Assembly: GCF_000002865.3 (NCBI RefSeq)
Contig: NW_001865052.1
Location: forward strand, 604,543-626,395
Direction: 5' to 3'
Length of the DNA stretch: 21,853 nt
DNA from: Monosiga brevicollis MX1
Lineage: Eukaryota; Opisthokonta; Choanoflagellata; Craspedida; Salpingoecidae
Shown here: piece after piece, positions 1,200-18,260 of the stretch
Position numbering within the stretch: the stretch's first letter is position 1
Layout: each line of letters starts with the position of its first letter
Translations under genes and position numbers: made by a program
The notes under the pieces: generated by a model
What the model saw: only the letters and a program-made list of their open reading frames with translations
Told to the model about the DNA's origin: nothing
The model's database searches: none

Positions 1200-3337
1200 A
1201 TGTCGGCCAGCGGGGCCGTGGATCACTTGGATCCGGAGCTCAACGGAGTCTTGCGCTCGCTATTTCGTGACAAGGTGCTATGGCAGCGCGTCCAGGATCT
1301 CCAGCTCTTGGTGGCGTGCCCTTCCATTGACGCCCTGGCCGGCGTACAGGTCACGCCAGTCATGGTCCGCCAGCACATTCTTCAACCATCTCAGGTCAAG
1401 CCAGGTCAGCGTTCAGCCACCGCGCATGTCAATGTTTCGGCTCGCTTTGCCGCACAAACGCTAACCCTGGCCAGCTCGTAGGCGTCTACCAGTGCTTTGC
1501 GGGCGGTGCAGGCGTCGAGCTGACGGTAGCTGGTGGAAAGGTGTGTGTTCTTTGCACCCTGTCTCGGGTTGACTCGCTATTGAGAACCTGTGGCCCAACG
1601 ACCACTTGAAGCCTCCGTTGAATCTCATGCCAAGCCTCGGGCGCGGGCGCGGGCGCGGGCATTCTTTTTTTTTTTTTTTTGCAGATTGCGCCGGTCCAGG
1701 CAACCCAGGAACGAGCCGAGTGGTTTGCCCAGATTATCTCGGAAGAAAAGTATCATTGCGATAACGGCATCGGAGTCGTCCGTCTCATCTGCATTGATCG
1801 CATCCTGGGCCAGGCCCAGACGGTAGGCCCAGATCGATCCCCGCGCTCTGACGTTTTGTTTGGTTTGTTGTTGTGTTCTTGCCCCAACGCTGATCCAGGT
1901 TTTGCTTTGCACCCCTTGGGCAATGGCCGATGTGTGGAAATTCTCAGGTTCATGCCGAGGCCATTCCCGATTACACAATCGGCCACGAGTGGCTGGCCTG
2001 GATTCAGGGCAGCATGCCCGCTGATCAGATTATGGAAATTCAAAAGGACTGCAACGAATTCAACTCGGCCTACGTCATTGGCACGCAAGTATCACCAATG
2101 GGCTGCGCTTAAAAGGGCCGGCGGGCTGTGCTGTCTTGGCTCATCTGGCTGCAGCATCCACCTGAGCTCATCTTGACCCTCTGCTCATTGGTATCATCAC
2201 GCAGAGGTTATTTGTCTTACGTTGTGGACAAGATTGAAATGATGGTGGAGGAGGCGGCCGAATCGATTGACGAGCATTCCTCGGCATTGCAGGCGCTCCC
2301 CATGCACGACCAATTGCGCCGAGATATCGCCTGCCGGTGCGAATAGATTGCCGTCATCCACCAGCAACCGCCACCATCTCGCGCGCTCTGTGTCGCCGAG
2401 ATTAACGCGATGATGCCATGCACCAGACTCACTGCTCCACCGTGGCTCCCACAGACAAGCCGCCGAGGAACTGATCATGATCAACGTGTATCCGTAGGTG
2501 TCGCCCGTGTTGGCGGTGAAGGGGGCTGCAGATTGGGGCGCCCGTGCACTCATCTACTCTTTGGCCATGCCCGTGTTTGTGCTGGTTTTGGGGGACGTGA
2601 ATAGAAAGGTATTTGCAGCACTTGTGAAGGAAACGCAAGGGGCGTGTGATGCACTGGCCGCAGCGCTACGCACACATGCCGGGACAAGCCTCGCAGATGT
2701 TGGGGCAGACCCGTCCCTCCAGCTGGACTTGACGCAAGCGGCCAGCGAGTTGCGGGGCATGTGTACGGCCAGCTCAGCGCTGGAGAAACATCGCTATCTG
2801 CGGTCGACATTGGACCTGATTGCGTGTGCGTCGACGGCCATTACAGCAGACGACCTGATTCCGCTACTCAGCTTGGTCATGATCAAGTGCGGGGATTCGA
2901 CGTTACCAGCTCAGCGTCTCTTTCTGGAGCGTTTCGACGTGACTGGGGCCTTTAAGGAGCAGGAGGGGGTGTTTTCGAGCGAGCAGCAGTACCGACTGAC
3001 AACCCTGATTGCAGCGCTGGAATACCTGAGCAACCCCAATTATCCGGAGAGCGCCGATCCCGTCGAGGCCGAGGCCGAGGCCGGGAGCCTGGGAGGCAGC
3101 AGCCATGGCACGGGCTCGAGTCTGGGGCCGGCCAGCGGGAGTCACTCGCACAACACGAGCTGGGAACAAGCCTCAACGGTGGAGACGAGCGAACGAGCAC
3201 AGCGTCAGCGTGAGGAGGAGCGCCAACGGCGAGAGGCCGAGGCCGCTGGCCAGGTGTACCTCAAGCCCGTGGACCGGCGCGTCTCAGACAGTGATGTGGG
3301 CCCCCTTCTGGCCCGCATCAGCAAACTGGGCATGTAA
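1200..3337 (+). CDS. VPS9-domain Rab guanine-nucleotide exchange factor, VARP/ANKRD27-like
   Basis: Seven exons: 1200-1394, 1475-1540, 1685-1822, 1948-2084, 2205-2336, 2455-2493, 2605-3337; 479 aa. VPS9 domains activate Rab5/Rab21-family GTPases on endosomes. The VPS9 core is about residues 224-379: helix AEELIMINVYPKVFAAL (residues 227-243, across exons 6 and 7), then ADDLIPLLSLV (Asp318/Asp319, the expected catalytic acid) and YRLTTLIAALEYL (Tyr365, the expected catalytic Tyr). Residues 1-220 follow the order of the human VARP N-terminus, including a region like its ILFEE...FSILCIAHPL stretch. No ankyrin repeats follow. Instead there is a Gly/Ser-rich linker (about 385-425), a charged coiled-coil-like RQREEERQRREAEA segment and a short tail. 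Intron 4 appears to use a GC donor (GCAAGT, 2085). An alternative is the GT at 2089 with an acceptor at 2232, which is also in phase and drops eight residues. The VPS9 call is strong; the VARP kinship is moderate. Confidence 0.85.
1637..1680 (+). repeat. GCGGGC tandem repeat plus poly-T in intron 2
   Basis: A short (GCGGGC)n run followed by about 16 T residues forms the end of VPS9-gene intron 2, directly before its GCAG acceptor at 1681-1684. The poly-T is the polypyrimidine tract. Confidence 0.8.
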
Positions 3338-4110
3338 GCCAGCCAGGTTTCATAGTGACTTGTAGATTGATCAGCTTTTTGTTTTTTTTTATCTTGAGCT
3401 TGTTTTTTTTGTTTTTTGTTTTTTGTCTCCATCTTCCGTCTTCCAATTATAATCTACATCCCCCTCTTTCTTCATCATGTTTTGATTTGAAGCGGGGGTT
3501 TTCTCAAGACCAAGTGGAGTGCCTTGACCATTCTTTGAAGGCAGCCTTGTCGATCTCGGTGGTCATGGAGACTGCCACGCTTGCCTTGTTTGCTCGGCAC
3601 ACAACATCAAAAGGGGAACAAAGGGGGGCGCCGGTTTTTTTGGGGAAACGGCGGTTGGGGCACGTCCACATGCACTGCTTCGTTTGTTGCTGATCTGGAA
3701 CGGCGCGCACGATGCCCCCAAACCAAAGCCATCAAGGTTGTCCGCGTCAACATCCCGAGGTGAAATTCAAAGTGTGAGGCTTGTAAGCTGCTTCACGTTG
3801 CCCGAGTGCCTCTTGGTGTGGCACCCAAGATTTAGCTCCTTGACGAGCCAAACCGATGTCGAGGTTCGCCAAGGGCCAAACTTAGGTTAAGCTTGTGATT
3901 ACAACATGCCGAATCATGTGTTGCAATCCAACTCGCACAACACACAGAGCTCAAGGCGTGCGCTTCTTTGGATTCCATACTGGAACCTAATCACATCAAT
4001 GTTTATGCAGTCATTTTGACACTTGGTGCTGTTTCTCACCGCCTGTCATACGTGGTTCCATTGCGACATATTCGATAGTTGTCGCGGCCTTCTGGAGGTT
4101 TATTGCAGTC

Positions 4111-4143
4111 GTATGACATGCCAATGCAAGAGGCATGTCATAC
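4111..4143. other. Perfect 12-bp inverted repeat with 9-nt loop
   Basis: GTATGACATGCC (4111-4122) and GGCATGTCATAC (4132-4143) are exact reverse complements separated by AATGCAAGA. The transcript of either strand could fold into a 12-bp hairpin. No gene is adjacent, and the function is unknown. Confidence 0.85.
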
Positions 4144-4866
4144 TACCCCGCTTCGAGAAGTTCGTGAGCAAGTTCGAGCGGACGCACATGTAAGCCGACC
4201 TGTTGGCGACGGCGCCGGACCCACGCAGGAATTTAGGGGATGGGTGTAAGGTATTGCGAGTGCTGACACAAGAATTCTCCTGCATTGGTGCTTCGCGACG
4301 GTTCCCTTCAACGCGACGAGTAGGCCTGCGTGCGGTGGGTTGGGACACACCACCCACGCGTGGACCCTTTGGGTTTCAGGACTGGCTTCCGGAGTGGTTG
4401 GCCCTTCTCTGGTTTCCGCTCCTGAATGTTGATGTACCTCTGACTACACCTTTGTTTTATAGCGTAGACCAGATGGAACGACAAAGCATTCTCTGGCTTG
4501 CCGCTTGCTCCCGCACGACTCTCTGCTCCAAAGTGATCGCATTCTCCCCTTTTTTCAAACGGCCGTTACGTCTCTTCAACCGTTATTCCTCACACCCTCA
4601 ACCCCACACCCCACACACAGACACATGGCTACCTGCCAACAACCAAACCAAACGCCACACGTGAACACCATCACCCCCACACCCCCAAATCCCCCCTATA
4701 CTCCCCATGGCCCATTGCCGTTGAAGTTACACCTTGTTGAAGAACCGCGAAACAACGTGTGTGCGTGTGTGCGTGTGTGCGGTGTGCGTGTGTGTGTGTG
4801 CGACTTTTCGCTGTGCACAATTCCATGTGTGTGTGTCCTCTCGCTTTTTGCGCCTTTTTTTGTTTA

Positions 4867-4870
<4 letters not shown>

Positions 4871-4952
<82 letters not shown>

Positions 4953-5017
4953 TCGGCTCCATCACACATTGCCACCACCAGCTCTGCACGCTCTCGCTCT
5001 CTCTCTCTCTCTCTCTT
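4871..5017. repeat. (CT)40 microsatellite and second CT run
   Basis: A pure (CT)40 tract spans 4871-4950, followed by a second, interrupted CT run at about 4991-5017. Both lie upstream of the LARP1-like start codon. Long open frames through this stretch encode only Leu/Ser repeats and are artefacts of the dinucleotide. Confidence 0.95.
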
Positions 5018-5313
5018 TCTGTTTCAACATTTTCGGTCTCGTGTGTGTGTGTCTTGCGGCTGCGGGCTATTTCTTGGGTGCCTTGGTCATTTCTGCTGCT
5101 GCTGCTGCTGCTGTTGCTGTTTTGGCTGTTGGTTGGTGGGTGTGTGCGGGAGTAAGAGTATGCTATTGGTGCATCGGCGCTGCAAGCCTTGCTAGCGCCG
5201 TGTGCCCGCTCCTCTCCTTCCAAGGCTCCACCTTGGCCAGCTCCCCCCGACGTTCCACTCGGATCATTTCCCTCGGCTGGTGCCGCTCATCATCTCAGCG
5301 CGACCTGCCCACC

Positions 5314-7746
5314 ATGCGGCCGCACGCCAACGCTCGATTAAAAGATGCGCACTTTCCGGCCTGGTTACAACCGCCGGCGGCGACCGCCAACCTCGCCGAC
5401 ATGATTGGCACCCCCCACACAGGTATGCCCTCCGCCCGGTGCGCCTCGTGGAGCACGTCCCTTGTTTAACCTCATCCTGGTGCATCCTTCATCACCCCCA
5501 ATAGGCATGATGGTCGCCACCTCGTCTGGACAGAGCCCGTATGGTTTTACCGAGCAAGACCTTGAAGGCACATTGTCAGGAACAGACAACAATGGCGATG
5601 ACGATGACGATGGCTTTCGCGATGCCTCCTCCCTCACTCGCGATGTCACCTCCAAGCCCTCGCTATCGCATACACCCCGAGCCCAAGACGTTGATGACAT
5701 GTGGCTTGCACCCCAACATAAGACCGATCTGACTCGGCCCGCCCTTCGGTCGGCCCTGCGCTCCAGCCGACGCACCGCCAATGGCAATGCTAGCCCAAGC
5801 ACTTCGTCGTCAAAGCCTTCCCGCTCCGTCCGCATCTGCGAACAAACCACCCCCACCCCCGCTGGCCCCAGCCGCCGCTCGGCCCGGGCTCCCCTCAAGA
5901 GCCCCGCTACTCCCAAAGACCTCAGTGACAACATGGGCGTCTTTCAGTTTGACGAAGATTTGGTCAGTCGGCTTGCATCCATCCCCGCCCGGTCCCGGCT
6001 GGTTGATCTGCTTGTCTTTTCCCTTTCTTCTTCTGTCCCGCTCGCTTCGCTCACCGCCGAGCCGCCCGCCATCCGCCATTTGCTTTGCATGCGCGCCAAC
6101 AGGACATGGACGATGCCCTCGAACATGCCACTGCCGAGCTCGGCTTGGATGAAGCTGACGACGTCCGCGATCACGAACTTCGCCACCTCATTGTCCTGCT
6201 CGAGCAAGGCCACGCCGTACGTCCCCTGCCCGGCCTTTCGGCCCTCGACCCACACCTTTTTGGCACCCTGGCACGTCCACAACAACGACAATGGGGACAC
6301 GCTCACGCCTCGCGCCTTGCCCTTGCTTTTCCCCGCACTTGCCTTGTGCCCGCAGACCCCGACCTCGCCCACCACCACCGACCCCACGGCGCGCGCCGAG
6401 GCATCATCTGTGCCCCTCACAGCGCTCGCCGACGCAGCCGATGATGTCGACTTTATCGGCCACACACTGCTCATCGACCCCGAAGCTAGCAGCACTCGTC
6501 GCGGCATTAACCGTCGCTCCTCCCCCCTTCATCTGCCCCAGAGCCACCACCACCGTGGCTCTCCCTCGGCTCATTCCCCCGAAGCCGCCTCCCGCTCAAC
6601 TTGGTCTCATGGCTCCTGGAAGGTAGGAGGCTCCTTGCTCCATTTCCCACCCCCACCACCATCCCTCCTGGCTTGCTTCTGCAGTCGTCTCACGCTAAAA
6701 CTGGCTCGCTTCCCCCCCTCCCCCCCGTCATCTACCCCGTTTTTGCTCGTTTAGGGCACACCGGCAAAGCATCGCGCCGTCACAACAGCTGCTCGCCAGC
6801 ATCGGTCTGGCAGCTTTGGTGGTGCCCGAAGCACGCCCGCCAACAACAGCCTGGGCGGTGGCTTTGTCATGCTTCCCTCCCAGCAATCAACTAGCCTCGG
6901 GCTGGACGCCGCCTGCGAGGAAACGACCGACCTGGCCATTGGTTGGATCATGCCCGACCATCCCACCGTCAAGCCACGTGGCAGCTCCATCAACCTGGGC
7001 ACGCCGGGTCCCCAACTCCTGACCCGTAGCAGCAGCACCCATGCCTCGGTCACTGCCAGCCTCCACCGTCGTCAATCTGCTGGCCTTGTCGAACAAGACT
7101 ACCATGCCTTTCGCTCCCGGTACGGCACATGCGTCATTTGTCGCCTGAAAGCATCTCGGTTGTAACTGACGTTCGAATCTTTGCCGCTCGCATAGCTGCC
7201 TGAACCAACGGACGCGGTCCAAGCCCGGCTGTGCCCCTGACATGCTCTTGTTGTACCAGTTTTGGTGCGCGTTTTTGCAGAAGCATTTCAATCGGTATGG
7301 CCGGCCACATGTTGTCTTAGTCCTCGCATGCGTCACTCGATCCCTCACTTGCTCGATCACTTTGCTTCGACAGTACCATGTATCAAGAGTTTCGCACAGT
7401 GGTCCTCGAGGACGCGGCCCGCTGCTCTGCGACAGCGAGTAGTGATGCCGCCAAGCAGCGCGTGCAACAGGGCCTTGACCTGCTCTGGACTTTTTACTTT
7501 CATGCACTCGAAGCGCGCTTCCGTCCCTGGCTCTATCGAGCCTTTGAGGAAGCCTGTTTGGAGTGTGAGCAGGGTTTTGCCCGCCTGCGCGAACTCGTCC
7601 TGACTCTAAAGGATCAAAACGTGGACGTGGACGTGACTCCCGAGATCCAATCGCGACTGGACAAGGCTGCATTTTGCAACCCAACGCCCCTCTCCTCTCC
7701 CGCGGCCTCTTCTCCAGCCTCCAGTGAGCGAGTCAGCTTTTTTTGA
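5314..7746 (+). CDS. LARP1-family protein with DM15 region but no La module
   Basis: Seven exons: 5314-5422, 5505-5962, 6103-6216, 6356-6622, 6755-7119, 7196-7294, 7374-7746; 594 aa. The start ATG has a strong context (CCCACCATGC). Human LARP1 binds capped 5'TOP mRNAs through its C-terminal DM15 region and RNA through a La motif. Here residues about 1-400 are low-complexity and Ser/Pro/Arg-rich, with short matches to LARP1 spacers: an acidic QFDEDL (about 187-192) and IGWIMPDHPTVKPRG, parallel to human VGWVM before DM15. DM15 occupies about residues 428-560: YHAFRSRCLNQR, LLYQFWCAFLQKHFN, MYQEFR, then GLDLLWTFYFHALEARF and a third, weaker repeat. No La motif or RRM is encoded. By ungapped comparison, the human cap-contact residues Arg840, Arg879, Tyr883 and Tyr922 are Gln, Thr, His and Asp, while Glu886 is kept. 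Family membership is strong; cap binding is doubtful. Confidence 0.85.
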
Positions 7747-8125: not shown

Positions 8126-10036
8126 TCACAGGTACGACACGCTTGCCCCCGGGCTCGGGCAGATTCGAGTCGAGTATCATGGCCACAGGCTCGCCCGTCA
8201 CAGCGTAAGTCAACCAACCGCTTTTGTCCGCGCAGGACTGATTGGCCACGAGGTTGGGGACGTGAGGTAACGGTGTCGTTGTGTTGGACTTGATGAGCGG
8301 CATGACCGAGTAGCAGGCTCGCGGGTGCTGGGTGGGCACTTGAATCGTGACGGGCTGTCCAAACGTGTTGGAATAATTGGTATCCACGTTCCAGATCACA
8401 AAGCGACTGCTGTTGTCAAATGACAGGGCTCGGCCTCCAGTTGATGGCCAGTCTGGTGCATCAAGCGTTGCCTGGCCAAAGAGATGCAACAGACTCTGGG
8501 CAGCGCGGTAGGCAGGCTTGGGTGAAAAATTAGATCGCACGACGCCAAAGCGGCATTCCTTGTTGGTCGCATCGTCGCAGTCGTCCACCCAATCATACCA
8601 GTTAGCCAATTGAACCTAACTCAGCAATACGGGGTAGCAATGGCCGCCCACAACAACGCGTGTGACTGTCAGCACGGAGAGCCCTGGGGACTCGAGGTGG
8701 TACGGTACAGTTTTTGGATTTCACGCGCGGTTACTCTGCCACTCCAGTGAAAAGCAGGCACAGCAGGCTTTTGCTTTCTCACCTTGGCCGAGAGCATCGT
8801 CAGCCATTGGCGCACGAGGTAAGAAGCTTGAATGGTTTCATCCACATCGACGGTGCTATAACCCCACTCGCCGCTGAGAACGTCGCAGACAGGCTTGGTC
8901 TGCCCGCCGTGCTGGGCAATGAGCGTTCGAACAAAGGCCACCGAGTGTGACGACTCGTCCAGATCATTGACGGACTCGGGGACACCTGGGCGATAAAAGT
9001 GGACGGTAATAAAGTCGAAGAGTTCCACGATGCCACTGTTCATGATATTTTCAAGCCAAGGCACCGACAAGGCACCACCAAAGGCCAATGCAGGCCCCAC
9101 CAGCGCCAGGTGGCGGGTGACCGGATCGGCCTTGACAGTGTCGGCCACAATCTTGGCAAAGTTGTAATAGTCAATGTATCCATCGCCGTTCATGGCAAGA
9201 TTGGGCTCGTTCGTGACCTCCCAGTAGTCGCGTGTGCGATTCCCATAACGTCGCATGGCTGCTGCTAACATGCTGGCAAATGCCTGACATGCAAAGCAGG
9301 GCGAGTGAAGAATAGCAATGTTGAATGTCATTCAGATCGCCAACAAAAAAAGAAAAGTCATTCCCTTTCCCCCCCGACAAGAGTACCATATATGGTCGGC
9401 ATACATGTTGCGCTGAATGTAGTAAGAGCACCAGGCAGGCGCGTGAAACCCAGAAGTGTGAAACGTACCTGTTGGCCCTCTGTGCTGTTGGGCAGTTTGC
9501 CGCCGGGATAGAGATGGTTTTGTGGGTGTGCACACCACAGTACGCGCACTTGAGCCGTCTCTGCAAGATTGACAAGGTGGTCGTAAAAGTTCCAGTTGTA
9601 GATTCCTAAAGCCAGGGTGCTTTAGCCGAAACCCAGGTGCGCGGTACTGGAAGCCGACGGCCCAGGGGTGTGATGATACGAGGCGCTGCACACCTTTCTG
9701 CAGCTCGACCTTGTCCCAATTGAAGGCTGTGCGCATGCTCTTCACGCCCAGCGCTGTAAAGGCGGCCCATTCAGCTGCATTATCCAGTATCAATCAGCGC
9801 GTGGCATCATGAAAATGGCGTTGACCTGCCAACCACCGAGCGAGGAGCAACAGTTTGCTCCTTTTTCCCCCCAACGCTGCAACCACATGGCACTGACTTT
9901 CATTTGGAAGGGCCTGGTGCATACCCCAATGAGTGTTGACTGCGGCCATGTCCTGCAATACCAGGCCCCTGACGGTACCAGCCATGCACGTCGTCGCCAC
10001 GACCCATGCCAGCGTCACGCCAACGCAACCCCCCAT
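8121..10036 (-). CDS. Secreted clan GH-A glycoside hydrolase (GH5/GH39-like)
   Basis: Five exons on minus: 10036-9898, 9774-9694, 9605-9469, 9283-8783, 8615-8121; 450 aa. It begins with a hydrophobic signal-peptide-like stretch (residues about 1-24, MGGCVGVTLAWVVATTCMA). A TIM-barrel hydrolase follows: RTAFNWDKVE, KGIYNWNFYDHLV, then WEVTNEPN with the likely acid/base Glu145, FDFITVHFYRP, SGEWGYST with the likely nucleophile Glu258, and WYDWVDDC...FGVVRSNFSPKPAY at the C-terminal side of the barrel. This motif order is that of secreted beta-glycanases or beta-glycosidases; the substrate is not evident. The intron 1 donor at 9897 (GTCAGT) gives the family's usual spacing. An alternative donor at 9924 is also in phase but nine residues shorter. 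The start is the first ATG that gives a signal peptide; a TTG lies four codons upstream. The TAA stop overlaps an AATAAA. The gene is divergent from INTS11. Confidence 0.85.
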
Positions 10037-10290: not shown

Positions 10291-12483
10291 ATGCCGCTGT
10301 TGTTTGCATCGGATGATATACGGGTCGTGCCATTGGGGGCCGGACAGGATGTGGGGCGTTCCTGCGTTTTGGTGACCATGGGGGGTCGGACAATTATGTT
10401 TGACTGCGGCATGCACATGGGCTACAACGATGCGCGGCGTTTTCCCGACTTTACGCAAGTGGCGCAAGGCCCGCTGACGGATCACATTGACTTGGCCATC
10501 ATTACCCACTTCCACCTTGACCACTGCGGCGCCTTGCCCTACTTTACAGAGCAGGTGGGCTACGATGGTCCCCTGTACATGACCATGCCCACGCGCGCCA
10601 TTGCCCAGGTCCTGCTGGAAGATTATCGCAAGATTGCCGTCTCTCGGCAGGGAGAGAAAAACTTTTTCACCCGCGACGACATCAAGACGTGTCTCAACAA
10701 GGCCACCACCATCGACCTTCACCAGACAGTTGTCATTGACCAGGACTTTGAGATCAAGGCCTACTACGCGGGCCACGTTCTTGGGGCCGCCATGTTTTAT
10801 GTTCGCGTCGGCAATCAGAGCGTGGTCTACACGGGCGACTACAACATGAGCCCGGATCGGCACCTTGGTGCCGCCTGGATCGACCGCTGTGAACCAGACG
10901 TCATCATTTCAGAGTCCACTTATGCCACCACCATTCGCGACAGCCGCCGCGCCCGCGAGCACGACTTGCTCACCAAGATTACCCAGTGTGTACAGCGGGG
11001 CGGCAAGGTCCTGCTTCCCGTCTTTGCCCTTGGCCGCGCGCAAGAGCTGTGCATTCTGCTCGAGACCCATTGGCAACGCACGGGCATGCGAGTACCCATC
11101 TACTTCTCCACGGGTCTAACAGCCCGTGCCAACGAATATTACAAGCTCTTCATTACCTGGACCAACCAGAAGCTCAAGGAAACCTTTGTGGAACGCAACC
11201 TTTTCGACTTTCAGCACGTTCAGCCCTTTGACCGCAGCTACCTCGAGCATGCTGGGCCTCAGGTGCTGTTTGCAACCCCGGGCATGCTGCATGCTGGCAC
11301 ATCGCTCTTGGCCTTTACCCACTGGTGCGAGGACCCACGCAACATGGTCATTCTGCCCGGTTACTGCACGGCGGGCACTGTCGGCGCCAAAATCATTGCC
11401 GGCATTCGCGAACTCGACATTGAGGGCCGCCACTACACTGTACGCATGGACGTCGAATACCTCTCTTTTTCTGCCCACGCCGATGCCAAGGGCATCATGC
11501 AACTCGTCTCCCAATCGGGCGCAAAGCAGGTGGTGCTCGTACACGGCGAGCAACAAAAAATGGCCTTTTTGGCTGGCCGCATCCAGCAGGAGCTTGGCTT
11601 GCCCTGCCACTTTCCCCCCAACGGTCACTGCCTCACGCTTTCCACCAACAACCCCGTCCCAATCCTGGTCTCCGATGCCTTCCTCCCCGTGGCCAAGGAC
11701 GAAGTCGCAAAGGCCGAGCCCAGCTTTTCCCCCGCGCCGGGACCCAAGGCAGAACTGCTGGCGGAGGATGTCGAGACGAAGCCCAACCCATCACACCTGC
11801 TGGCAACTCCAAGCAAGCCGCCTATGGCTCTGGACGGCCATCTTGGGCTAGGTGCTGCTCCTGTGCCCATTGAAGGTGTGCTGGTGCGCCAGAGCAATGG
11901 TAAACTGCGCCTGGTCACCTTCTCCGAGGCGCAGCGCGATCACAATCTGCAACCACACGAGATCAAGACTGTATGCGTGATTGCACTACCTAGCGGGGCC
12001 TCCACCAGCTTGGTACATCGCCATATCCTCCAGCGCAGCCAGGCAGCAGGTTTGGCCGTGCTCGACTCGGGGCCAACAACCCTCAAGGTTGGCTTGGTGG
12101 ACGTTTCTATCGAGCCCAATGAGGTGCGGCTGGCCTACAAGAGTGGCAGCGGCGTGCGAGATGCGGCCCGTCTTCAGGACATTGTTGGCAGTCTGCCTGA
12201 CATGGCCGAGGCCTCGCGTGACTCATTGTCCAAGCCCCGTCAAACGCCTTTGGCAGCGGCTGAGGCCAGTACAGCAGAGAGTCGGCCGCCCATGGACACT
12301 GAGGATGACGATGAGGACGATGTCAATGATGACGACGACGAGGAGGAGGAGGAGGATAGTGACGATGGCAGCGGTGATGATACAGAGGAAGAGGAGGCTG
12401 ATGACCATGACCAGAGCGACAATGACGACGACGACGACGACGACGACTCAAGCGACCGTCTCAGCAGCAGTCAAGACGAATAG
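10291..12483 (+). CDS. INTS11: Integrator complex subunit 11 (CPSF73-like RNA endonuclease)
   Basis: A single uninterrupted exon encoding 730 aa. INTS11 is the zinc-dependent endonuclease of the nuclear Integrator complex and cleaves snRNA 3' ends and nascent mRNAs. The metallo-beta-lactamase motifs are intact: HFHLDHCG (His73, His75, Asp77, His78), GHVLGAAMF (His162), YTGDYN (Asp183), SESTYATT (Glu208), then the beta-CASP region, [10 protein letters not shown] (His396) and LVHGEQQKM (His418). Identity with human INTS11 is very high over residues 10-470. Residues about 555-650 match the C-terminal domain expected to pair with INTS9. The protein is about 130 residues longer than the human one, mainly through a linker (about 460-550) and a roughly 60-residue Asp/Glu tail built on a (GAC)n-rich stretch. 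The ATG at 10291 gives the conserved N-terminus. It is intronless, unlike most neighbours. Confidence 0.97.
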
Positions 12484-13134: not shown

Positions 13135-14853
13135 TCAATTGTGCGTTGGGTGCAGGGCAAAGGTGCTGAGCTGGCCCGGAAGGCCGTGTTGAATTAGGAA
13201 AGTACTTTGCAAGCGAAGTGCCGACGCATCTGCCAACGACACCTCAGCGAGCTCAGCTGAGATCCTGGGGGCGAGTGCCGTCGCGGCCACACTCGACACG
13301 TCGACGGTGGTATACCCCACGACGGCACCCGAGGCAGGTAACAACACCAGTCCACCCGCGGCAAGCTTCGCCCCAGGTGCTAAAATCAAGCGCTGGGTGG
13401 TGTGCCGCTCGGCATAGGGCGCCAAATAGACGGTCACACTCAATTGGAGCTGCAATCGCGGAGTAGATAAGCTGGGTGCTGCTGCGTGGGTTAAGCTGGC
13501 GATGCACTGGCAACGCCATAGCTGGAGGAGAGCTGAGAGAAAAGCTGGCTGCTCTACCGAATCCACAGAAACATTGGGGGCTGCAAGCAAGTCGGTGTCG
13601 TTGCCTAGACGGAGCTGGCGGTTTTGGGCAGTGGTGGAAAGGGCAACGCTCTGAACATGGGTGCGCACAGAAGGTAGGACCCCGGCGTACAACAATCGGG
13701 TGCACCAGTGGAGCCCGGGCCTTTGAACCAAGTCGATACAGACGGGAAGGGCCAGATCGGGGCGCACGCGCTGGACCAGCTTGTGCAGCATGGGCTGTGA
13801 GCCTACCTCAAGCACACGTGCCCCAGAGGGCAAATGCTGTAGCATGCTGTGAAAGGTGACGGGGCGTGACAGGCACGCCAAGAGGAATGCCGGACTAAAC
13901 TCGGCAAAGCTGCCAGGCACCGTAGTGATCCAGGTGACGGCGAGCTTCGGCGATCCAGGGAGCCATCGATCCAAGCTGGCGCGCACACTTTCGAGAAAGC
14001 AAAGATTTGCAGCTGTTGCCTCTGGATCATCATGTGTATCCTCAGTCATGTGGAGAGCGGTTTGGGCCGACTGCACCCGCTGCGTGCGGATCTGCAGAGC
14101 TGCCAGCTCAGCTTCTAAGCCTGTCAGCGCGCCCGCTTGAACCGCCATTCGATTCAGTGCCACGGTCACGTTGCAAGGTCCGTTGATGCAGGCCACGGTC
14201 GCGCCCAGGGGCAGTAGCGGCTCCACCTGGTTACAGGGTGCAGTGACGGCCAGCATGGCGCCGGGGCGAGTGCGAGCCCAGTCACCCATGTGCCAGGCCA
14301 GACGAGCAACGAGCGGGGGAGGCAGGCAAAGGGCATGGGCGGCACAGAGCAGCTCACCCAGACTATGGCCACAGCAGGGAGCCTGATCAAGGCCCAGCTC
14401 ATGCAAAACGGCTGTCAAGCCCAACTGCAACACCACGGAGGCCACAAAAAGGGCGCGCGCGTCGGCATGTAGCTCCGCCGACGCACTCTCACTTGTCAAA
14501 AGATAGGGCAAATCAAACGGAAAGCCGTCCAAACCCTGTTGGCAAGCGTGCACGGTGGCCTGGAACACGGGCTCGCGCCACATATGAACATCCACCAAAG
14601 TCCACCGAGAGCCCAGTCCGGGAAATAAAAGCCATGGCAGCGTCTGCCCAACAGCCGGATCGGACGGGTTGGTCTGGATGACATGGGCAATTCCGTCGTC
14701 CTCAGCCAGCCAAGTGGTGCCTGGCGTGGGGTCGCTTGGCAGTGAGATGGCTCGGCGCAACCCCCATGCATTGTCAGGATCACAGGCAAGGGTCGTGGCA
14801 AGGTGAGCTCGATCGGTGGGAGACTCTGCGGCCAATCGCCAGAGGGGAAGACG
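13135..14853 (-). CDS. FAS/PKS-type acyltransferase without ketosynthase; 5' end unresolved
   Basis: The frame is open on minus from 14922 to the TGA at 13137-13135. I place an acceptor at 14853 (CTGGCAG), giving 573 codons. Counting from the TTG at 14835: a linker like the KS-AT linker of animal fatty acid synthase (1-65); FPGLGSRW (71-78, for the family's PGxGSQW); GHSLGE with nucleophile Ser158; INGPCNVTV; ALHM with catalytic His262 (family AFHS); VTFHSMLQHLPSGARVLEVG. This covers a whole AT domain. The later part (about 410-530) is unassigned; a hotdog-like fold resembling half of a dehydratase is possible. The Arg that binds malonyl-CoA (Arg606 in mammalian FAS) is absent: AYWRGQ in FAS aligns with AWHMGD. 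No upstream in-frame ATG exists, so a 5' exon is needed. One candidate is 15420-15289 (44 codons, CAG/GTGCGC donor). No ketosynthase was found. Such domains load acyl groups from CoA onto carrier proteins. Confidence 0.75.
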   Translation of the reverse strand, partial: RLPLWRLAAESPTDRAHLATTLACDPDNAWGLRRAISLPSDPTPGTTWLAEDDGIAHVIQTNPSDPAVGQTLPWLLFPGLGSRWTLVDVHMWREPVFQATVHACQQGLDGFPFDLPYLLTSESASAELHADARALFVASVVLQLGLTAVLHELGLDQAPCCGHSLGELLCAAHALCLPPPLVARLAWHMGDWARTRPGAMLAVTAPCNQVEPLLPLGATVACINGPCNVTVALNRMAVQAGALTGLEAELAALQIRTQRVQSAQTALHMTEDTHDDPEATAANLCFLESVRASLDRWLPGSPKLAVTWITTVPGSFAEFSPAFLLACLSRPVTFHSMLQHLPSGARVLEVGSQPMLHKLVQRVRPDLALPVCIDLVQRPGLHWCTRLLYAGVLPSVRTHVQSVALSTTAQNRQLRLGNDTDLLAAPNVSVDSVEQPAFLSALLQLWRCQCIASLTHAAAPSLSTPRLQLQLSVTVYLAPYAERHTTQRLILAPGAKLAAGGLVLLPASGAVVGYTTVDVSSVAATALAPRISAELAEVSLADASALRLQSTFLIQHGLPGQLSTFALHPTHN

Positions 14854-15720: not shown

Positions 15721-15793
<73 letters not shown>

Positions 15794-16185: not shown

Positions 16186-17730
16186 ATGCCCGCCGTCGGT
16201 GCTCCGTACGCGGCGCTGCTGTCCAGTCTCAAGGTGGGAGACTTGACACTCAAAAACCGCATTATTATGTCCGCCATGACGCGTGCTCGCTCCATCAACA
16301 ACGTTCCCAACGACATGAACCGGGCCTACTACGAGCAACGAGCTGGCGCCGGCCTTATCATTACAGAGGGCGTCCCGATTGACAAGCGGGTAAGTCTTCC
16401 CATCCCCTCCTTGTGGGTGTCTTGACTCAGCTGTCTGCCCTGTTCCATTTGACTGCTTCCTCCTTTAACGCCTAACACGATCCACCATCCCTTTGTCCAA
16501 TCACACCAGGGTTCTGCTTGGACAGACGTGCCCGGAATCTACACGGAAGAGATGGCCGAGGGCTGGAAGCGAGTAACAGACGGCGTCCATGCCAAGGGCG
16601 GCTTGATCTTTGCCCAACTGTGGCACATGGGTCGCCAAGCACACAGCTCGTTTTTTGATGGCAAGCTACCCGTTGGCCCATCCCCCTTGAAGATTGAGTC
16701 ACCCAAGGGCGTCCCCAACGCGGACGGCGAGTTTGTGCCGTATGAGGTTCCCCACGCGCTTACCGTGGACGAAATCCAAGAAATTGTACAGGTATGCTTT
16801 CCCTATCCATTCAGACAGACGCCTACACGCTCAGCGAGCCAAACCAGGGTCTTGAGCTGGCTGCCTGTTTTGCTTCTCCCATGCTTCTTCTGTTCATGCC
16901 TGCCTTTTACCACCTCGCCACCTCGCTGCCGCTGCACAGCAATACAAACAGGCTGCCCTGCTGGCCAAGGCGGCCGGCTTTGACGGCATCGAGATGCATG
17001 GTGCGTGGTCGGCTTTTCTCAGTTGCTTGGCTCTCCTCGATGCTTCTTCTCTTACCTGCCAAATCTTCGCGCTCACTCCGACTCCATTGTTCTACCTCCT
17101 TTGCTCACGATAGCGGCCAATGGATATTTGGTGGATCAGTTTCTGCAGTCGTGCTCCAACCAGCGCACAGATGAGTATGGTGGTAGCATCGAGAACCGTT
17201 ATCGCTTCTTGGATCAGTTGATGGACGTGGCCCTGGAAGCCTTCCCCAAGGAGCGCGTCGGCGTGCGCATCAGCCCCAATACCAACTTTGGTGGTTCGGG
17301 CTCCCCCGACTTTCGTGAAACGTTCACTTATGTCGCCGAGCAGGTCGGCAAGCGGGAAGTGGCGTACCTGCAGGTCCTGGATGGTCTGGCTTTTGGATTT
17401 CATGAACTGGGTGAGCCGATGACCCTGGACGAGTTCCGGCCTCTGGTGTCAGAGAAGACAAAGATCTTTGGCAACGTCGGCTACACACCCGAGTCGGGTG
17501 AGGAGGCGATCACATCTGGTGTCGCGGATGCCATTACCTATGGACGTTACTTTTTGAGCAACCCCGATTTTCCTGAGCGTCTGGCCAACAACTGGCCGCT
17601 CAATGAGCCCCCGGAGCATGCAGCCTGGTTTACGCCTGATCTGCCCAACCGCGAAAAGTATTCCACGTCCTGGGGCTACACAGAGTACCTACCCTATCCC
17701 GAGGAGGCCAAGCAAGCAGCTTCAGCGTGA
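16186..17730 (+). CDS. Old yellow enzyme family NAD(P)H:flavin (FMN) oxidoreductase
   Basis: Four exons: 16186-16389, 16510-16791, 16940-17000, 17114-17730; 387 aa, normal for the family. These cytosolic FMN enzymes reduce activated C=C bonds of enones (12-oxophytodienoate reductase, OYE1, bacterial NemA). Features in order: LKNRIIMSAMTRARS at the FMN site; IFAQLWHMGRQAH; FDGIEMHAANGYLVDQFLQS with the substrate-binding His182 and Asn185 and the proton-donor Tyr187 (spacing as His191/Asn194/Tyr196 in yeast OYE1); RTDEYGGSIENRYRFL; GVRISP; IFGNVGYTPE; AITYGRYFLSNPDF. The introns are phase 0, 0 and 1 with clean GT-AG ends. The start ATG (CAGCACCATGCCC) has a good context. The natural substrate cannot be told. 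Confidence 0.95.

Positions 17731-18260
<530 letters not shown>

Follow-up and report, generated by a model that had tools for sequence, protein, structure and literature searches.

A divergent LARP1 paralogue with a predicted cap-blind DM15 region and no detected La motif in Monosiga brevicollis

Introduction

What could a LARP1-type protein do after losing most of the residues with which its human counterpart holds the mRNA cap? This question is raised by a gene located at positions 5314–7746 of the forward strand in a 21,853-nt stretch of contig NW_001865052.1 of Monosiga brevicollis MX1 (positions 604,543 to 626,395), which is here called the window. The initial annotation of this stretch described a LARP1-family gene that starts without a La motif and encodes a DM15 region in which most cap contacts are replaced, in an organism near the base of animals. 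The last point holds, as the species is a choanoflagellate. Six PDZ domains of the genome, out of 30 retrieved, were compared with the PDB: one agrees with 6x1n (mbDLG-3, where mb stands for M. brevicollis) in 102/102 residues, and another with 6x1p (mbDLG) in all but the last three of 72 aligned residues. Below, the predicted protein is compared with human LARP1 and with a second LARP1 encoded on another contig (C52) of the same assembly, which is referred to as the companion LARP1.

Results and Discussion

Gene model and coding evidence

The gene was modeled by hand from its splice sites as seven exons, which encode 594 amino acids without an internal stop codon. All six introns are of the GT–AG type and intact. 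The features of the model are as follows:

5314..5422, + strand: putative exon 1, with the start ATG, residues 1–36 and part of residue 37; in frame, GT–AG
5505..5962, + strand: exon 2, the Ser/Arg/acidic-rich N-terminal part; GT–AG, open frame, positive codon log-odds
5942..5959, + strand: FQFDED in exon 2, resembling the LARP1 FxFDEE box (FQFDEE in the companion LARP1); suggestive only
6103..6216, + strand: exon 3, of which residues 208–226 (6157–6213) resemble the segment DMEMDRVVIFVQ of the companion LARP1
6356..6622, + strand: exon 4; GT–AG, positive codon log-odds
6755..7119, + strand: exon 5, with the IGWIM motif (6938–6952), Ser394 (6986–6988) and the beginning of DM15
7196..7294, + strand: exon 6, DM15 repeat A, with Gln at the place of R840 (7257–7259), Ala at F844 (7269–7271) and Gln at R847 (7278–7280), as aligned by MAFFT
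7374..7746, + strand: exon 7, the remainder of DM15 repeat A, a 12-residue insertion, repeat B, a degenerate repeat C and the stop codon

A codon-usage score trained on the companion LARP1 and two other open reading frames of the window supported the chosen frame in exons 2–7 (0.05 to 0.41), while the introns scored at most 0.04 in every frame. The two alternative frames of the exons contain 9 and 23 stops. Exon 1 was not favored by this score (–0.15), which leaves the start at 5314 unproven, so that this start is putative and the ATG in exon 2 could be used as an alternative. The ATG at 5314 had been described as having a strong Kozak context; it does have A at –3, but it has C at +4 and stands in the exon without codon-usage support.

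The C-terminal part of the protein is of LARP1 type

The only Pfam match of the predicted protein is LARP1_HEAT (PF21071), which scores 78.9 bits (E 5.6e-22) where the cut-off is 27. In phmmer searches of the PDB its C-terminal part matched five different LARP1 sequences, with E values from 2.3e-19 to 1.1e-17. The human DM15 structure 4zc4, the sequence of which is also that of entries 5c0v, 5v4r, 5v7c and 5v87, was matched to the protein with E 6e-18. The alignment with full-length human LARP1 starts upstream of DM15, at the sequence GWIM (GWVM in human), and continues into DM15. These data agree with the proposed membership in the LARP1 family. The order and spacing of DM15, which had also been called LARP1-type, were found as described for repeats A and B. 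They depart from it in the 12-residue insertion between these repeats and in a 5-residue gap before repeat C, seen in the MAFFT alignment; the Pfam match, which covers residues 423–538 of the protein and positions 8–112 of the 149-position profile, leaves the degenerate repeat C outside. A M. brevicollis sequence is included in the LARP1 DM15 alignment of Lahr et al. 2015 (PMC4652764).

No La motif was found in the gene or upstream of it

The same Pfam scan, which detected DM15, found no La motif in the protein. To the 5′ side, the gene is preceded by the following region:

3338..5313, no strand: spacer ahead of the gene, in which GT and TC microsatellites occur and no sequence encoding a La motif was found

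An open reading frame with a VPS9 domain (2567–3337, + strand, E 5.9e-12), perhaps the end of a gene for a Rab5 exchange factor, ends directly ahead of this spacer. A search of the whole assembly (39.5 Mb, 57 contigs) for La motifs, performed exon by exon so that an intron-split motif could be missed, gave five exon hits. They are located on contig C22, in two genes of C52 and, as a weak match, on C42, while C43, the contig of the window, has none. When the La domain of the companion LARP1 was used in tblastn, the best match in the 15 kb upstream of the gene had an E of only 1.1, and the best match within the window (E 0.30) was at 21.7 kb on the opposite strand, while two other La genes were recovered at E 0.011 and 0.034. 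Hence, the earlier statement that no La motif is visible in the gene or in the 2 kb before it extends to a longer upstream region. The search for PAM2 gave no Pfam match in the protein up to E 1, which is a weak test, as the companion LARP1 itself reaches only 0.22, below the cut-off.

These results bear on whether the gene is a piece of a longer LARP1 gene, the La exons of which were missed or mis-assembled. The poorly supported exon 1 and the limit of the exon-wise searches would be compatible with such a fragment, but the VPS9 reading frame upstream ends at 3337, the contig is without a La hit, and the best upstream tblastn match is poorer than those of the recovered La genes, which makes this explanation highly improbable. 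La exons overlooked upstream were rejected on the latter two grounds.

The genome also encodes a LARP1 with La motif and DM15

The search of the assembly with the LARP1_HEAT profile gave four exon hits, three of which belong to one gene on C52 and one to the gene in the window. The C52 gene, modeled by hand with exons between 200552 and 196424 on the minus strand, encodes the companion LARP1, a protein of 1006 amino acids with a La motif and DM15. Its La match was above the cut-off when scored by exon (41.1 bits) and just under the cut-off of 37.1 in the scan of the spliced protein (35.8 bits). The presence of this LARP1 elsewhere in the genome indicates that the gene in the window is a paralogue and that the organism retains a LARP1 of the cap-reading type. 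The possibility that the window contains the only LARP1 of the species was thus rejected. On sequence grounds we regard the gene as a divergent LARP1 paralogue.

Two introns in the DM15 region, which are those bounding exon 6, interrupt the same codon in the same phase (phase 2) in both M. brevicollis genes. These common positions fit a duplication at the DNA level, although ancient introns may have been inherited by both genes. In a five-way alignment the DM15 of the window protein was 32% identical to that of human, 34% to that of fly and 29% to that of the companion LARP1, and so is about equally distant from each, while the companion and human regions were 49% identical; the pairwise alignment of the two M. 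brevicollis regions gave 36%. Only four DM15 residues are common to the two M. brevicollis proteins alone, and nine to the window, human and fly proteins alone. The similar distances, compared with the identity of the companion and human regions, suggest that the duplication is old or that the window copy has evolved fast. No relatives of the gene were found in viral contigs or in contigs of prokaryote genomes. A genome search with the protein encoded by exon 7 returned only exon 7 itself, and was insensitive, missing the known C52 gene too.

The companion LARP1 contains two stretches that resemble the PAM2 consensus. They are MTPSAQAFVP before the La motif and KLSPLAKSFVPG after it, of which only the second matches the Pfam PAM2 profile, below the cut-off.

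Seven of eight cap-pocket contacts are replaced

In human DM15 the contacts comprise R840, R879 and H800, all three assigned to the backbone, the stacking residues Y922, Y883 and F844, E886 and S882 at the guanosine, and R847 and R879 at C1 (Lahr et al. 2017, PMC5419741). The DM15 regions of human, zebrafish, fly, the companion LARP1 and the window protein were aligned using MAFFT, with human numbering anchored on R840 as the Arg of FRFW, after which all eight contact letters match. The eight contacts scored (R840, F844, R847, R879, S882, Y883, E886 and Y922) do not vary among human, fly and the companion LARP1; H797 and H800 were left out of the count, as they are not conserved even in the companion. 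Those encoded by exon 7 correspond to the following codons:

7489–7491, + strand: Thr at the place of R879
7498–7500, + strand: Phe at the place of S882
7501–7503, + strand: His at the place of Y883
7510–7512, + strand: Glu at the place of E886
7603–7605, + strand: position of Y922, Thr by MAFFT and Asp by phmmer

The companion LARP1 keeps all eight contacts, while the window protein keeps only Glu886 (1/8), the letters in the MAFFT alignment being Q840, A844, Q847, T879, F882, H883, E886 and T922. The replacements of Arg840 by Gln, Arg879 by Thr and Tyr883 by His, as well as the retention of Glu886, are the same as those previously read from a hand alignment, and three further contacts are changed, namely F844 to Ala, R847 to Gln and S882 to Phe. 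The earlier assignment of Asp to Tyr922 depends on the alignment: Asp was obtained by phmmer against human, but the position is a gap against zebrafish and Thr by MAFFT, and in no case is it Tyr. In repeats A and B the window protein keeps 1/7 contacts, compared with 23/36 other invariant positions (p 0.022, in a small sample), and in the whole DM15 1/8 compared with 26/56, which is not significant (Fisher one-sided p 0.07). The net charge of the aligned region is –1 in the window protein, while it is +6 in human, zebrafish and the companion LARP1 and +4 in fly.

Single mutations of E886, Y922 and Y883 were reported to weaken the binding of capped TOP RNA 380-, 124- and more than 950-fold, respectively (PMC5419741). 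From these weakened mutants it is a strong inference that the window protein no longer reads caps. Some RNA binding may nevertheless persist, since DM15 regions from human, fish and fly in which R840 and Y883 were both mutated were reported to retain an appreciable affinity for one TOP RNA, which they bound 600- to 3500-fold more weakly (PMC11349179). One could go further and suppose that the region binds a different RNA, either uncapped, with another first base, or through other surfaces, with His883, Phe882 and Glu886 forming an altered pocket. The kept Glu886, the adjoining aromatic Phe882 and His883, which could stack on a base, and the residual binding of the double mutants are consistent with this explanation, but the fall of the domain charge from +6 to –1 and the loss of all three arginines that grip phosphates or bases (840, 847 and 879) make it rather unlikely.

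The hydrophobic pattern of DM15 is retained

Among the positions of repeats A and B at which human, fly and the companion LARP1 all have a hydrophobic residue, 32/35 are also hydrophobic in the window protein, while the mean of shuffled sequences was 17.7; for the whole DM15 the count was 40/47. Gapped positions were excluded, and none of 20,000 shuffles scored as high. This suggests that the region is probably folded into HEAT-like repeats, and the retention of the core pattern together with the loss of contacts argues that constraint persists on the helical core and is gone at the ligand site. A long-dead pseudogene was rejected because of the open frame, the codon usage, the GT–AG introns and the hydrophobic pattern.

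A milder form of decay, in which a relaxed LARP1 duplicate drifts without function and is still unbroken, would account for the loss of the La module, most cap contacts and repeat C, and for the nearly equal distances of the DM15 region from its human, fly and companion counterparts. Set against this are the 594 open codons alongside the stops in the other frames, the good codon usage of exons 2–7, the six intact introns and the 32/35 hydrophobic positions; an unconstrained sequence so diverged would be expected to be broken. Decay is for these reasons decidedly unlikely.

A Ser770-like site and motifs of the middle region

The alignment to full-length human LARP1 placed Ser394 of the window protein in register with human Ser770, the number of which takes into account that the human LARP1 forms of 1096 and 1019 residues are offset by 77 residues. 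Ser770 is reported to be an Akt/S6K site (PMC5484620). The match may have arisen by chance, and since the companion LARP1 has Asp instead of Ser at this place in our alignment to human, conservation of a kinase switch is not established. The human LDID loop, for which Lahr et al. proposed the description TOS-like (PMC4652764), corresponds to VDVT in the window protein in both the phmmer and MAFFT alignments, so that the TOS-like pattern is partly kept there; the companion LARP1 does not show it.

A profile of the LARP1 middle region built from human and the companion scored 1.8 bits against the window protein, which was beaten by shuffles and is not significant. The middle region had no significant match to LARP1 where the 40S-binding region (human 660–724) was compared, and nothing relevant was found for it in the PDB. 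Single motifs of this region, which were picked after the alignment was seen, gave the following results. For the helix motif in exon 3, 97/5000 shuffles scored as high with the companion version and 193/5000 with the human version. For the FDEE-type motif, 101/5000 shuffles equaled the companion score, while the human motif was equaled by 316/5000 and had its best place elsewhere. The GW motif was equaled by 417/5000 shuffles in its companion form, GWVL, and by 219/5000 in its human form, GWVM. The similarity of the FDEE-like and DHELRHLIV-like motifs to LARP1 is suggestive only.

Proposed function and comparison with known LARP1 proteins

We estimate a probability of about 0.48 that the gene is coding and that its product is a LARP1 paralogue, blind to the cap and probably folded, which would act as a protein-binding scaffold or competitor. 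In this mechanism the DM15 region would still fold as HEAT-like repeats, the clamping of m7G would be lost with the absence of Tyr883 and Tyr922, and the first nucleotide would not be ordered in the absence of Arg840, Arg847, Arg879 and Phe844. As these contacts are missing, the protein would not be expected to hook mRNA 5′ ends, and as no La motif or PAM2 was found in it, it would probably not hold the tail side of mRNA either. It would serve as a HEAT-like scaffold, a cap-blind "pseudo-LARP1", which shares the proteins bound by LARP1 or competes for them, and which kinases may control through the segment ahead of DM15.

As to the partners, human LARP1 was reported to be bound by RAPTOR chiefly in its C-terminal part, with R840 being required (PMC8034618); the Gln at this position weakens the simple version in which the window protein is a TORC1 decoy. 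The same consideration applies to a more specific form of the scaffold explanation, in which the protein would be a dominant-negative LARP1 that takes partners such as TORC1 or Akt/S6K without binding TOP mRNAs, so that LARP1 would be released or left unphosphorylated. The alignment of the GW(I/V)M–Ser770 segment with human and the C-terminal location of RAPTOR binding point toward it, and the VDVT loop is a weak hint in the same direction. However, besides the R840 requirement, the TOS role of this loop is a proposal, and its pattern is retained only in part here and not in the companion LARP1, which is also without Ser at the Ser770 place; the dominant-negative form is clearly unlikely. A broader speculation, which we consider unlikely, is that of a "pseudo-cap-binding" LARP1. 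Such a paralogue would have lost the La module and the tyrosines that clamp the cap, but would retain the DM15 scaffold, perhaps together with a segment acting as a kinase switch, and would regulate the true LARP1 or TORC1 signaling by protein competition. Pseudokinases that regulate kinases provide an analogy for such a protein, which would add a further level of control to the TOP-mRNA switch in the group that is sister to animals.

The scaffold explanation can be placed beside known LARP1 proteins. Human LARP1 and the companion LARP1 (G000:C52:200552-196424) resemble the window protein in having GW(V/I)M followed by DM15 in their C-terminal parts. The window protein differs from both in having no La motif found and no PAM2 match, in the loss of 7/8 contacts, in the insertion between repeats A and B, in the degenerate repeat C and in the change of charge from +6 to –1. 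A C-terminal fragment of human LARP1 (669–1019) likewise has DM15 without the La module, but its pocket is present, and it was reported to repress TOP mRNAs even with mTORC1 active (PMC8034618). Ascomycete LARP1 proteins are similar to the window protein in their degenerate DM15, with weakened A and B repeats and the conserved C box absent; these proteins are, however, described as LARP1s (PMC4652764), while the window protein has no La motif found and coexists with a canonical LARP1. Among the literature matches listed, with titles and the beginnings of abstracts, none names a DM15 protein lacking La, although one may have been mentioned earlier.

If a coding gene has indeed kept the fold pattern and dropped the contacts in the presence of a normal LARP1, then DM15 repeats can serve beyond cap reading. 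The gene would also provide a natural separation of functions, by which LARP1 partners that bind the scaffold could be told apart from those that bind the RNA pocket.

Other features of the window

At 10291–12483 (+ strand) a single open reading frame encodes a 730-amino-acid protein with metallo-beta-lactamase, beta-CASP and RMMBL domains and a long acidic Asp/Glu tail, which from its domain order we take to be of the CPSF73 or Integrator-11 type. The sequence at 13138–14583 (– strand) encodes an acyl transferase domain (PF00698, E 3.3e-9) of the kind present in synthases of fatty acids or polyketides, and a gene for an NADH:flavin oxidoreductase (Oxidored_FMN), in at least two pieces, lies at 16552–17730 (+ strand). 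At 8669–9328 (– strand) the GH5 cellulase family is matched weakly, below the cut-off, and this stretch may belong to a gene for a glycoside hydrolase. Long dinucleotide arrays with 97–100% matches are present at 4870–4950 (TC), 15721–15792 (CA) and 17934–18057 (CA).
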